Positions 9,479 through 60,460 of a stretch of 64,000 bases of DNA are shown here, one piece after another. Below the pieces are notes generated by a model. That model had not been told where the DNA came from. It ran no database searches and worked only from the letters and a program-made list of their open reading frames with translations. Numbering within the stretch: the first letter of the stretch is position 1; each line of letters opens with the position of its first letter. The position numbers were made by a program, and so were the translations under genes. Source of the DNA: Diabrotica undecimpunctata (lineage: Eukaryota > Arthropoda > Insecta > Coleoptera > Chrysomelidae); the NCBI RefSeq assembly GCF_040954645.1, contig NC_092808.1:80439889-80503888 (forward strand), written 5' to 3'.

Positions 9479-9584
9479 TGTAAAGACTACGACCGTCAAT
9501 TTATATTTCTAAAGTATTCAACTAGTGAATTCAGAGGTTTAATCGGTCATTCAGGTTGGCAAATAAAAAAAAGAAGTCAACTAC

Positions 9585-9643
9585 TTCATAAGTTTATTGA
9601 AGACGTTTCGCTTTATATTTCTAAAGCTTCATCAGTTCTCTAA
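9585..9643 (-). ncRNA. Hammerhead-ribozyme-like motif, left palindrome arm
   Basis: Mirror copy of the right-arm motif: on the minus strand CTGATGA occupies 9635-9629 and GAAAC 9609-9605, with a GCTTTA/TAAAGC stem II between them. The sequence matches the right arm base for base across the core. Confidence 0.55.
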
Positions 9644-10516
9644 AATATAACAAATGACATTGAGTTTATAAGAAATACAGATATAGTTCATAACTTACAA
9701 CTCAATATGTAGTATGTTATCGATGTTATCATATCTACTGTACACTTTACTCCTTATTTAAAACTAACTTAACCAAAAAAGAAAAAACAAAAAACAAAAA
9801 CAAAAAACACACAAACTTTGCAGAAAATAATGTTCATATTCGTAGATATGAATATTTAAAAAATTTTAAACGAACATTTGGCTTCATTTAGATAGTTCTC
9901 CACTGAAGACCAACAAAGTTCTGATTTATTGCAATATAAGCAAACAACTTGACGCGATACCGAAAATTTTTTTAAGGGCCATGTGTCACCAAATTCCAAG
10001 GTTTGAGACAATTATGAACTTCTACAGGGGACATTGCATAATTAGTTGGACAGTTGGACAGTTATTTAAAAATAACTATCAAATATTTCCGCCATATAAA
10101 TTCCACCTGTCCAACTAATTATGCAATGTCCCCTGTAGAAGTTCATAATTGTCTCAAACCTTGGAATTTGGTGACACATGGCCCTTAAAAAAATTTTCGG
10201 TATCGCGTCAAGTTGTTTGCTTATATTGCAATAAATCAGAACTTTGTTGGTCTTCAGTGGAGAACCATCTAAATGAAGCCAAATGTTCGTTTAAAATTTT
10301 TTAAATATTCATATCTACGAATATGAACATTATTTTCTGCAAAGTTTGTGTGTTTTTTGTTTTTGTTTTTTGTTTTTTCTTTTTTGGTTAAGTTAGTTTT
10401 AAATAAGGAGTAAAGTGTACAGTAGATATGATAACATCGATAACATACTACATATTGAGTTGTAAGTTATGAACTATATCTGTATTTCTTATGAACTCAA
10501 TGTCATTTGTTATATT

Positions 10517-10575
10517 TTAGAGAACTGATGAAGCTTTAGAAATATAAAGCGAAACGTCTTCAATAAACTTATGAA
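10517..10575 (+). ncRNA. Hammerhead-ribozyme-like motif, right palindrome arm
   Basis: CTGATGA at 10525-10531 is followed by one extra A, stem II GCTTTA (10533-10538) with loop GAAATA and partner TAAAGC (10545-10550), then GAAAC at 10551-10555 and a GTC cleavage triplet at 10556-10558. Stem III is only the self-complementary ACGT, which in known PLE and newt hammerheads favours activity as a dimer. GAA before the core can pair with TTC after it, with more AU pairs beyond an internal loop, as stem I. The extra A after the core is a deviation, so self-cleavage is unproven. Confidence 0.6.
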
Positions 10576-10653
10576 GTAGTTGACTTCTTTTTTTTATTTG
10601 CCAACCTGAATGACCGATTAAACCTCTGAATTCACTAGTTGAATACTTTAGAA

Positions 10654-10695
10654 ATATATATATATATATATATATATATATATATATATATATAT
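10654..10695. repeat. (TA)n tract 5
   Basis: About 42 bp between the palindrome and element Y copy 1. Confidence 0.95.
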
Positions 10696-12038
10696 TAATG
10701 TGATATTAAAAGTCAGAGGTGCGCCAAGCAATTAATTACCTACCTAATTAATTAATTAAACTTATTTAAATGATGCAATTTTGATTTTATCACACTATTT
10801 AATTCTCTTATCTCAGGGTTGTATTCGTGCTTCAATATCTATGCTTTACATATAATAGGTAAGGTCTAAGGAATACCGGAATAACAAACATATATGATAC
10901 AAAATTATATATTGAAATAAAATTCACACTCAAATATCTTCAACAAAAAATATCTCATATAATGATTATCAAAATTTTGTTCTACGTACGTGAACCTTCA
11001 AAAATTAATGTTATATACTATATAAATTAAAATTTCAAATCAAAATTGTTGTTCTATATCTCCTGATAAATATTTCTCTTTTCTGAAGCAATTAAAAAAA
11101 ACTTTGTTTATAAAGAAAAACTGACGAATGGTAAAAAAAACTATCTCTCTGACGATGAGTTGTCCAAATCCTTGTTTCTTGTAGCCCACACTATCTATTC
11201 TTAGCAGTTCCCTAGGTAATCAGCAATATTACAACAAATTATTGCGAGCCTCTCGTGTTCAATGATCTCCTTCAGATGCACGTATCTTTCAAAAAGATGC
11301 TAGCCTCTTCTCCTCTCGATAAACTGAATCTCTCATTTCGGCCTAAACAGTGACTCTTGGAATATATAAGTAGAAAAGTATAACTTACAATATTTTTCTG
11401 GATCAGCTTCAGTCAGATACACTAACTCCAAGAAAACTCACAAACATTCACTTCTAATGCTTACTATCACTTGGGAACTACCAGAGAAACACGACTGTTC
11501 ACCTTGCACCTTTGGAAAAAAACCGATTATCTTTTTTCCCTCAAAAATCTAGCTAAACTCTCATTCCTACATAAACATCCCACTTTTTCCAATCTCCGCC
11601 AATCAAAGTTTGTCATATTTATCCCCATCTACCATTTAGATAACAAACAACAATTTTACCTACAATTATAACTTTCCTAAAAACTATTAACATGCTAATC
11701 ATTCTACAAATTCTTAAAAACTAACGGAGAATACATTTTAAATATTTCGATTCTATTGTCTTATACACCGTATCGGCGTATAAGTCTATTTGGAAAATAC
11801 ACTCGCATTGTTCCATTATTTCACTACGTTCACTCAAATATATTTTACAAAGAAAATAATTTATGCATATCTTTAAATCTTGTTTACTACAGGTAATCCA
11901 AAGATAATGGACTTTTATTTCTTCGAAATATCTTTTATAGTTTATCACTTGAAATATTTTGAAATAATATATATTTTATACTTTGAAATATATTAAGAGC
12001 AAACAAATATTATTTTCAATTTTACATAGCATAACAGT
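10694..12038 (+). mobile_element. Element Y, copy 1: (TA)n-embedded repeat
   Basis: A 1.34-kb module lying between (TA)n tracts 5 and 6. It is collinear, in opposite orientation, with 27754-29158. Matching landmarks include GGTGCGCCAAGCAA near 10731, ATCTCAGGGTT near 10813, GTGACTCTTGGAATAT near 11350 and CATAACA near 12030. Both copies begin and end with ATTGTNAT-like sequences beside TA repeats. A 66-codon ORF (11471-11671) is not preserved in copy 2, so the element appears non-coding. It is probably a non-autonomous transposon; superfamily unknown. Confidence 0.65.
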
Positions 12039-12127
12039 ATATATATGTATATATATATGTATATATATATATATATATATATATATATATATATATATAT
12101 ATATATATATATATATATATATATATA
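12039..12127. repeat. (TA)n tract 6
   Basis: About 89 bp, mostly AT with two TGTATA interruptions at the left. It bounds element Y. Confidence 0.95.
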
Positions 12128-59120: not shown

Positions 59121-59489
59121 CCGCCTTTGAGGTCGATTTCACAACCTCAGAACAAAAGGGTGCCCTACCACTTACCAACTTATCCGCCCTAAGCCGTTGG
59201 TCAGTAAGTGGGGGATTGCTTATACCGGCAATCGCTCGGTGAATGACTCGTCACACTGAATGACTCGCCACACTGAAGAGTATGAGGTAGAACGAAATAT
59301 AGTGACCCGTCTACCCTCGAAAACCTAATAGCCATTCGTGGTCGGAAGAAATAAGAGTTAGCCAACAGAGGCTGATAGGAAAGGCCCTTATGATGCGCCA
59401 GGTGCGTTTCATAAGCGTACGAGTATTAATACACCTTGTGTTCTCGCTCATACCTCGGGGTGTTGACTACAGACTGTATGGCTCGTTAG
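59121..59489 (-). other. Probable LINE copy B leader, GC-richer
   Basis: Lies between the endonuclease start and (TA)n tract 17. It contains the hairpin-like TTACCAACTTATCCGCC/GGTCAGTAAGTGGG pair and AATGACTCGTCACACTG repeated with AATGACTCGCCACACTG. No ORF stands out. Confidence 0.4.
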
Positions 59490-59619
59490 ATATATATATA
59501 TATATATATATATATATATATATATATATATATATATATATATATGTATATGTATGTATATATGTATATATATATATATATATATATATATATATATATA
59601 TATATATATATATGTATAT
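59490..59619. repeat. (TA)n tract 17
   Basis: About 130 bp with a GTATATGTATGTATATATG interruption, between LINE copy B and the inverted hammerhead pair. Confidence 0.97.
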
Positions 59620-59682
59620 GGTAAAATGTATGACCTAGGAGAACAAATTCATTAAACTTCCCGTGCTCGAATCGGTATCAAT

Positions 59683-59729
59683 AAAGTGTTATTACTCATT
59701 TTGGCATATCCCTGCGTCATCAGATACTT
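59683..59729 (-). ncRNA. Degenerate hammerhead motif, left copy
   Basis: Minus strand: CTGATGA (59723-59717), CGCA-GGGATA-TGCC, then AAAA in place of GAAA, and GAGTAA in place of GAGTC. Core mutations predict inactivity. Confidence 0.5.
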
Positions 59730-60303
59730 GGGCTGATACAAATTCAAACTCGGAAAGTGCAACGAATATCTCCTGAAACTTGAGTTATCCCATGAATGGA
59801 ACAAGAAACTTTTGCACACACGCGACTTTTGCAAGAAAATCGTGACCTCGAACTCGATACGCATAACTTGCATCATGGAAACTGGCAGTATTTTCATTTC
59901 GAAGCGGCCTTTTATGCTGGACAGGTAAGACCGTAATTAAACCAACCAAATAATAATTTACGTCGTGAGAGCGCACTGCATTACCATTTCTCCATATTTC
60001 TTTTCTTTTCACCTAATTAGTTACCTCAAAGCACTACAACCTTAAGCAGTTATAAGGGTGTCCAGCTTCATGAGTCGATAACTTCAACATTTTAGCGACC
60101 TCTGAGATCCGGCCTTTTTTTTTTAAGGCATAACGTTGTTCTCAACGGACCCCTCCGAATCACTATTCGCCATAATCGTTTATTAATAATTACACAAACA
60201 ACCAAAAACATACACTTCTTGCGGTTAGAATAATACTGACACGTTTCTTAAAAATCATCACGTTCATTCGTTGGACTTTTCGAGTTTGAATTTATATCAG
60301 ACC

Positions 60304-60349
60304 AAGTGTCTGATGAGGCAGGGATATGCCGAAATGAGTCATAACACTT
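60304..60349 (+). ncRNA. Hammerhead ribozyme motif, right copy
   Basis: Stem I 5' strand AAGTGT (60304-60309), CTGATGA (60310-60316), stem II GGCA (60317-60320), loop GGGATA, TGCC (60327-60330), GAAA (60331-60334), then TGAGTC with a GTC cleavage triplet (60338-60340) and a stem I 3' strand ACACTT (60344-60349) complementary to the 5' strand. All invariant core bases are present. Stem III is minimal and stem I is offset by three bases, so activity needs testing. Confidence 0.65.
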
Positions 60350-60460
60350 TATTGATACCGATTCGAGCACAAAACTTTAACGAATTGGTCCTCCTAAGCC
60401 ATACATTTGGCCATTTAATTACCAAAGCAATAGCTTATGCTAAAAGATTTAATCTTTTAC

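Follow-up and report, generated by a model that had tools for sequence, protein, structure and literature searches.

Why should four inverted repeats of different length and content, lying within a single stretch of beetle DNA, follow one plan? The question is raised by 64,000 nucleotides of the Diabrotica undecimpunctata genome (NC_092808.1, positions 80,439,889 to 80,503,888 of the forward strand; hereafter the window), in which a sequence-only reading had described four inverted repeats made of head-to-head copies, with 3' ends outward and a hammerhead core near each outer end. Inverted-repeat searches confirmed this geometry for all four, here called E1, PLE1, E3 and E4, in which the 5' ends are central and the motif-bearing 3' ends point outward. 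Head-to-head order, a 3' tail on one copy only, and target site duplications (TSDs) are features of Penelope-like elements (PLEs), so that PLE-type priming on both target strands is considered the best explanation, and each pair is probably the product of one such integration. A single process of this type, as the sequence-only reading had proposed, fits all of the pairs, including their TSDs of 13-14 nt and their AT-rich or (TA)n targets.

The sample read directly comprised the 200 kb surrounding the window plus ten 10-kb stretches, chosen arbitrarily, from eight other contigs (363 kb including the window), and the whole 1.74-Gb genome was searched by the coordinates of exact 3' ends and by similarity. 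Pairing of exact ends rests on the first 100 places listed for each family, a neighbour being an end within 7.5 kb, and the similarity searches scored the best 40-57 candidates, so that they are samples of the most similar copies. Two of the four window pairs are nested, as their TSDs indicate: the left duplication of the E3 pair lies outside PLE1, which therefore landed in the left end of an E3 pair that was already present. A fifth pair, the coding PLE2, starts in the window at 63268 and has its partner just outside. The layout is as follows, with the arms as delimited by inverted-repeat search.

9499-10058/10102-10661: E1 arms, 560 nt, 99% identity
33564-34889/36018-37343: PLE1 arms, 1325/1326 identical
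37343-37455/37461-37573: E3 arms, 113 nt, 96% identity
59615-59767/60266-60417: E4 arms, 153 columns, 87% identity
9479..9502 (-): E1 tail, a 24-nt 3' extension of the left copy only; TTGACGGTCGTA in common with the coding PLE3 tail
9503..10058 (-): E1 left copy, 3' end outward; hammerhead CTGATGA..GAAACGTC at 9635-9602
10102..10657 (+): E1 right copy, without tail, directly into (TA)n; hammerhead at 10525-10558
33503..33515 (.): TGATATTGGTATA, left TSD of the E3 pair, set apart from it by the insertion of PLE1
33513..33526 (.): left TSD of PLE1, ATAAATTAATTACT
33527..33563 (-): PLE1 tail, left copy only
33564..36017 (-): PLE1 left, longer copy with reverse-transcriptase (RT) reading frames; RVT_1 in 34499-35692, 1.9e-14
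36018..37343 (+): PLE1 right copy, 5'-truncated, without tail; hammerhead-like motif at 37252-37286
37340..37353 (.): right TSD of PLE1, ATAAATTAATTACT, overlapping the left end of E3
37343..37455 (-): E3 left copy, without tail; motif TTGAGAA..GAAAAGTC at 37434 and below
37461..37573 (+): E3 right copy; hammerhead-like TTGAGAA..GAAACGTC at 37482-37516 (U3-A8)
37574..37605 (+): E3 tail, right copy only; recurs at E3A, E3C and E3D
37606..37618 (.): right TSD of the E3 pair, TGATATTGGTATA
59615..59767 (-): E4 left copy, without tail; degenerate hammerhead
59768..60264 (.): E4 inter-copy sequence, outside the E4 family, possible cargo; family similarity begins at query 206
60265..60417 (+): E4 right copy; canonical hammerhead CTGATGA..GAAATGAGTC from 60310
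60418..60460 (+): E4 tail, right copy only, then (TA)n
63268..64000 (-): PLE2 left copy, without tail, ending in (TA)n; tailed partner beyond the window

Copy orientation and target duplications

The exact 24-nt 3' end of E1 was found at 414 places genome-wide (reversed control, 0) and the exact 22-nt 3' end of E3 at 10,085 (control, 0). Among the first 100 of each, neighbouring E1 ends formed 18 head-to-head, two tandem and one tail-to-tail pair, and neighbouring E3 ends formed 21 head-to-head, two tandem and two tail-to-tail pairs, against 4.9 chance pairs of all kinds. By similarity, the best 45 matches of E1 contained ten head-to-head pairs and none of another kind, and the best 68 of E3 contained 28 head-to-head, no tandem and three tail-to-tail pairs, all three between units of one array on C1. 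The matches listed for E4, counted without two rows starting before query position 200, gave 13 head-to-head and no tail-to-tail transitions together with 23 tandem steps, and 57 scored matches of PLE3, a coding element 56 kb to the right of E1, included eight head-to-head, three tandem and no tail-to-tail pairs. The check that the sequence-only reading had set for itself, whether most copies are single and inserted like DNA transposons, did not refute it: beyond chance, the neighbours of E1 and E3 are head-to-head, and E4 has neighbours in tandem and head-to-head arrangement but none tail-to-tail. Among the E1 ends listed, a single tail-to-tail pair is close, 86 bp apart at C2:141697657-141697766, and is possibly a nested insertion.

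A hammerhead scan, which was designed after the elements had been seen and is therefore not an independent census, gave 21 hits in 263 kb compared with 0, 0, 0, 2, 0 and 2 on Markov-shuffled sequence; CGAAACGTC occurs five times in the window against 0.11 expected. Across the 363 kb, 32 positions carried the motif GAAACGTC or passed the scan, and at 20 of them a head-to-head partner was found within 7 kb with a score at least 20 above the maximum of 12 shuffles, three further positions exceeding the head-to-head null by only 1-2 points. The tail-to-tail null was exceeded at six positions, four of which can be put down to the nesting of PLE1 and E3 and to adjacent pairs that belong to a single family; at 80517784 another family member faces the position from 2 kb away, and 80413828 (47 vs 38), without a head-to-head partner, is unexplained. 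A same-strand neighbour scored above the null at eight of the scanned positions.

Identical flanking sequence amounts to 13 nt at E3A, E3C, E3D and the window E3 and to 14 nt at PLE1, lengths reached by at most two of 300 shuffles at any of these five insertions. One duplication of each insertion lies directly against the tail and the other against the copy that has none. In the comparison of short with coding elements that had been suggested earlier, duplications of 13-14 nt flank non-coding E3 and coding PLE1 alike. E1, E4, PLE2, PLE3 and two further pairs, 607 and L028, sit in (TA)n, where no duplication could be read.

One tail per pair

One member of a pair extends past the end of the other before the target is reached, by 24 nt in E1, 30 nt in PLE2 and 37 nt in PLE3; the tail measures 48 nt in E4, 50 nt in the 607 element (C6:80568851-80570235) and about 32-39 nt in E3, lengths that shift by a few nt with the end chosen. 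It is borne by the left copy in E1, PLE1, E3D, 607, L028 and the pair 80504602/80505066, and by the right copy in E4, E3, E3A, E3C, PLE2, PLE3 and L022. Exactly one tail was thus present in 13 of 13 clear pairs read directly (P 0.0008), a value that is not an independent test, as the rule was first noticed in these same pairs. Left out of this count were a degenerate E3 pair in L023, which agrees and is too poor to be used, and the pair 80517878-80519054, which could not be judged. The tail sequence recurs within families, at four loci for E3 and at three for the E1/PLE3 type, indicating that the tail is real family sequence.

An independent test was provided by genome coordinates. The tailed end of E1 occurs at 185 places by exact match, and 17 of the 18 head-to-head E1 pairs have exactly one tail, the remaining one having two (exact P 0.0003); the tailed end of E3, an older family, was matched exactly at 1,820 places. 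Of the 13 head-to-head clusters listed for E4, 12 can be judged, and in each of these the copy paired with the tailed one ends short of the tail, nine at query 358-361 and three, possibly cut short, at 344-347; in the similarity list of E3 the same holds for five of five partners with a visible 3' end.

Coding, truncated and short members

PLE-type reverse transcriptases are carried by PLE1 (RVT_1, 1.9e-14) and PLE3 (RVT_1, 3.3e-7), the latter a head-to-head pair at C6:80506827-80512015 (L001) with an open frame of 785 amino acids. The GIY-YIG match of PLE3 is below threshold (0.0026; 18.4 bits vs a cut-off of 22.6), and the C-terminal pieces of PLE1 have no Pfam match yet align with PLE3 and with P0001, the best relative of PLE1; P0001 and PLE3 match each other's loci. 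The nearest named relatives of the PLE1 protein come from weevil, anole and spider. Forty of the 57 scored PLE3 matches are stop-free, and all are 94-100% identical, most 97-100%, which suggests that PLE3 was probably active recently. PLE1 and PLE3 show head-to-head and tandem copies with a tail on one end, as in Penelope-like elements; tandem copies were counted for PLE3, with a step of 3725 bp. PLE protein matches were also found in three further pairs, 607, L028 and PLE2. At C8:134234374-134247962, a PLE3 tandem dimer faces away from another tandem dimer (-,-,+,+), with a step of about 3726 bp. A PLE-like 3' end at L029 5200-5486 ends on its 5' side in an 81-bp palindrome (5406-5486) with perfect 38-nt arms.

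E1 shares its hammerhead, 3' region and tail block TTGACGGTCGTA with the coding PLE3, at 76-79% identity to PLE3-type ends over the hammerhead region. Its tandem spacing, by coordinates, is 3217, 3211, 3222 and 3212 bp at four places, not far from the PLE3 step of 3725 bp, with one more same-strand pair 300 bp apart (C5:15350988), and the spans of its pairs are spread broadly, from 77 to 3177 bp. The window copy has no PLE protein match, the unit of about 3.2 kb being known by coordinates alone. The tandem steps, with the 3' end and tail common to PLE3, suggest that the window E1 is most likely a 5'-truncated piece of a PLE-sized unit. The sequence-only reading had taken the three short elements to be non-coding, which is true of E1 as it stands in the window, although its unit is longer; the label of non-autonomous satellite, which had been extended to all three, does not fit E1.

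The satellite label does fit E4, whose 23 tandem steps of 303-320 bp, most commonly 318-319, define a unit of about 318 bp. Only about 150 nt of this unit per arm, together with the tail, are present in the window, and this portion has no PLE protein match. The 497 bp between the arms are foreign to the E4 family; no second copy was seen within the 363 kb, and the last part matches one other place at 88% among the best 40 candidates listed. E4 resembles animal non-LTR retrozymes, for which PMC7229834 gives a size of about 170-400 nt, in its tandem units and its type I hammerhead, a core found by the scan with a fold z of -1.77 and no Rfam hammerhead match. It differs from them in its head-to-head order and PLE tails, which do not appear to be described for retrozymes in PMC7229834, the main text of which lacks the word 'inverted'.

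E3 probably also deserves the name of satellite. Its 21 pairs among the matches listed have bimodal spans, 15 of 31-190 bp and six of 854-2809 bp with nothing between, the short class implying that the RNA is short and that its 5' end is defined, any sequence upstream lying beyond the reach of a similarity search. The window copy has no PLE protein match. Retrozyme-like tandem units of 170-400 bp were not seen among the first 100 exact ends of E3, whose two same-strand neighbours lie 3.9 and 6.8 kb apart, at chance level. The best-match list of 28 E3 pairs contains 17 junction classes, counted by eye, and 12 of the pairs have one junction in common. Four of these same-junction pairs, at C1:90580884-90604034, follow one another at steps of 7.6-7.7 kb as a tandem array of a larger unit with the E3 pair inside, and eight further loci share the junction.

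At E3A (C6:80385608-80387915), two E3 copies 2 kb apart lie within a single 13-nt duplication, and in each arm the same E3 5' position is followed by an A-rich run and then by a different sequence. The right cargo holds a piece of reverse transcriptase (RVT_1 0.00017, below cut-off), and two other cargo pieces have no Pfam match, the left cargo being readable as a possible retroelement 3' end; to judge from FADD-like motifs, these may be pieces of LINEs. The unlike contents of the arms argue for two separate RT events at one break, an observation made at this one locus. The A-rich stretch was also considered as the plain poly(A) of a captured RNA, a reading set aside since L021 has a similar stretch without a partner and the A tract may belong to E3 itself. 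Tentatively, and with more doubt than trust, E3 could be seen as a very small hammerhead-tailed RNA, with a natural U3-A8 core, that borrows PLE enzymes and serves as a general vehicle for RNA capture: reverse transcription from both sides of a break would run off its 5' end, jump to poly(A) tails of unrelated RNAs and install two captured sequences head-to-head, which is what E3A looks like. More captured cargo of this kind may lie in those six E3 pairs, out of 21, whose ends are 0.85-2.8 kb apart. E3A is similar to the PLE-mobilised NRPS of Adineta vaga, placed between pseudo-LTRs, in having foreign sequence between inverted ends with a TSD, and differs from it in carrying two sequences, one per arm, in an element without a PLE protein match (as far as the case is described in PMC3846280).

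Hammerhead-like motifs were found near the outer ends of the pairs, as proposed, although in part as altered forms. The canonical core CTGATGA is present on both sides of E1 and, in E4, on the right; the left E4 arm carries a mutation (GCCAAAA in place of GCCGAAA), PLE1 has CAGAAGA in both arms, outside the form scanned with positions 3 and 8 free, and E3 has TTGAGAA, a U3-A8 variant. With these positions free, 19 hits in the 363 kb comprised ten C-G, eight U-A and one A-A, compared with four hits in total and none C-G or U-A in a shuffled null of 8 x 363 kb. The U-A hits come from three families, E3, 607 and L028; PLE2 has the same core and is not among the hits. This covariation speaks for a real fold and for a U3-A8 variant that occurs naturally. 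The small RNA in which the elements end is probably self-cutting. In minimum-energy folds of one arm each, stem II was present but stem I only in part (z -1.8 to -2.3). No family reached its gathering score in an Rfam scan, nor did permissive scans of the elements bring up a hammerhead family; low-threshold hits were discarded as mostly palindromes and AT repeats scored as microRNA precursors. The cores resemble the diminished-stem-III hammerheads that Lunse, Weinberg and Breaker reportedly tied to PLEs in 2017, with GAAACGUC / GAAAGCUC and almost no helix III, but E3, 607, L028 and PLE2 carry U3-A8 instead of C3-G8. A literature search on hammerhead and U3-A8, limited to one wording in one library, found nothing. 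According to PMC11167929, C3G or G8C alone abolishes the Anolis ribozyme and the paired change partly restores it, and the hammerhead is not needed for insertion in vitro. The E3 and E1 patterns had no match in viral contigs, nor E1 in phage records.

Apart from the pairs, the window contains a 300-bp direct repeat at 23548-25403, with copies 1556 bp apart and related stretches 30 kb off at 54972-55582.

Proposed integration on both strands and its alternatives

In the proposed process, a PLE enzyme combining RT and GIY-YIG endonuclease would cut AT-rich DNA with a stagger, and both exposed 3' ends would prime reverse transcription of a hammerhead-bearing RNA, giving one copy per side with 3' ends outward, each with its own 5' stop, before gap repair left a duplication of about 13 bp. 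Reverse transcription would start at two sites 24-50 nt apart, one strand normally using the far and the other the near site, and this would produce one tail per pair; once one side had started at one site, the other side would take the other, perhaps because two RT subunits work on one RNA or because repair needs unlike ends. The same reaction would serve the coding PLE1, PLE2 and PLE3, truncated relatives such as E1, and the short non-coding E4 (318 bp) and E3, on which PLE enzymes would act in trans. Priming on both strands would explain the outward 3' ends, the independent truncation, the duplications and the unlike cargo. The earlier extension to any RNA with a hammerhead tail goes too far, as ends and tails are family-specific.

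Much of this agrees with what is described for other PLEs. The Anolis PLE protein cuts and extends both target strands, prefers AT-rich DNA and starts internally at two sites, which accounts for the tail (PMC11167929), and in bdelloid PLEs head-to-head order prevails, one of the inverted ends may bear a tail, such TSDs as exist measure 8-10 bp, and a host gene has been carried in trans (PMC3846280). The present elements share with Penelope/Poseidon-type GIY-YIG PLEs an RT with a possibly GIY-YIG-like C-terminus, a minimal hammerhead, tandem and head-to-head copies, the optional one-end tail, TSDs near 10 bp and AT-rich targets, as far as these are set out in PMC3846280 and PMC11167929. They differ in that short non-coding families have the layout too, the readable TSDs measure 13-14 nt, the presence of one tail in each pair comes close to a rule and many targets are (TA)n. 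Head-to-head order, tail and hammerhead were already known for coding PLEs. What appears to be new, as far as literature searches on PLEs, hammerheads and retrozymes show, is that a hammerhead unit of 318 bp and a very short family with 10,085 exact 3' ends both bear the PLE landing signature; a count for the one-tail rule and the U3-A8 cores appear to be new as well.

Other origins of the pairs have to be weighed. The short elements could be 5'-truncated copies of ordinary coding PLEs, with no satellite among them, and this is what E1 appears to be, given its tandem spacing of 3211-3222 bp, its spread of spans and its PLE3-like end; the pairs 607, L028 and PLE2, moreover, carry PLE protein matches. 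As an account of all short families it is nevertheless unlikely, because the E4 unit is too short for an RT gene, the bimodal E3 spans are unlike random truncation of a long element, and the window copies of E1, E3 and E4 lack PLE protein matches. It is rather improbable that the second copy came from self-priming (snap-back) of one cDNA, or from priming on an antisense template, instead of from both target strands, although such an origin has been proposed for bdelloid PLEs from palindromes at inverted junctions (PMC3846280) and palindromic centres are present here as well, as is the L029 palindrome, with no second 3' end visible. Snap-back should give mirror images at the start, but the arms of E3A carry different cargo inside one duplication, and arms differ in tail and in truncation, as in L022 with its 38-nt partner. 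Junction palindromes as such were judged too weak for use as evidence.

Near-perfect inverted repeats with TSDs, and a junction common to 12 E3 loci, are also what DNA transposons of MITE or foldback type would show if they moved as a unit with long terminal inverted repeats. This possibility is very slight, as it is largely refuted by the variable junctions (17 classes in 28 E3 pairs), and arms of unequal length, spans from 31 bp to 2.8 kb, the restriction of the tail to one end, the tandem arrays of E4 and PLE3, and members that encode RT in the same layout all stand against it. Hairpin reads can yield perfect palindromes; even so, an artefact of assembly or sequencing is next to inconceivable given duplications at five insertions, diverged arms (87% in E4), tails that differ between the arms, and pairs listed by the dozen whose spans are not alike.

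Several observations weigh against PLE-type priming on both strands. An exact-match neighbour within 7.5 kb is absent for 58 of the 100 listed E1 ends and 54 of the 100 listed E3 ends, whose partners may be mutated, truncated or absent, and in the sample read directly 80413828, L021 9162 and 80527646 carry a hammerhead without a clear partner. The L029 copy, with no second 3' end in view, resembles a single copy with snap-back, and the 12 E3 loci with one junction imply that some pairs were copied as pairs. The genome-wide tail test is weak for E3, with 12 pairs showing one tail, nine none by exact match and none two (P 0.11; states of the 21 pairs read by eye from coordinate listings), and the similarity lists of E4 and E3 start from tailed copies, so that the test lies only in the partner's lack of a tail. 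No PLE with a tail matching E3 or E4 turned up, no search by tail having been made. In addition, the Anolis study reports no start-site difference between strands and so does not predict the one-tail rule (PMC11167929).

PLE-type integration, if it is the common origin of these pairs, bears on both PLEs and retrozymes. The one-tail rule constrains it to two RT events at one break with different start sites, a difference left unexplained by the in vitro data given in PMC11167929. Retrozymes are known as tandem repeats, with PLEs named as candidates for their mover (PMC7229834, PMC7761336), and as a strong candidate in PMC7229834, and long TSDs have been compared with those of LINEs (PMC4918200); a 318-bp hammerhead family with the PLE landing signature makes the suggestion of PLEs as movers testable (PMC7229834). 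Natural variation at the 3-8 pair would extend the range of sequences known for hammerheads. For D. undecimpunctata itself, the picture is of a genome full of hammerhead-tailed elements that often land as mirror-image pairs, the pairs bearing the PLE landing signature even when the element is a few hundred bases long and seemingly non-coding.

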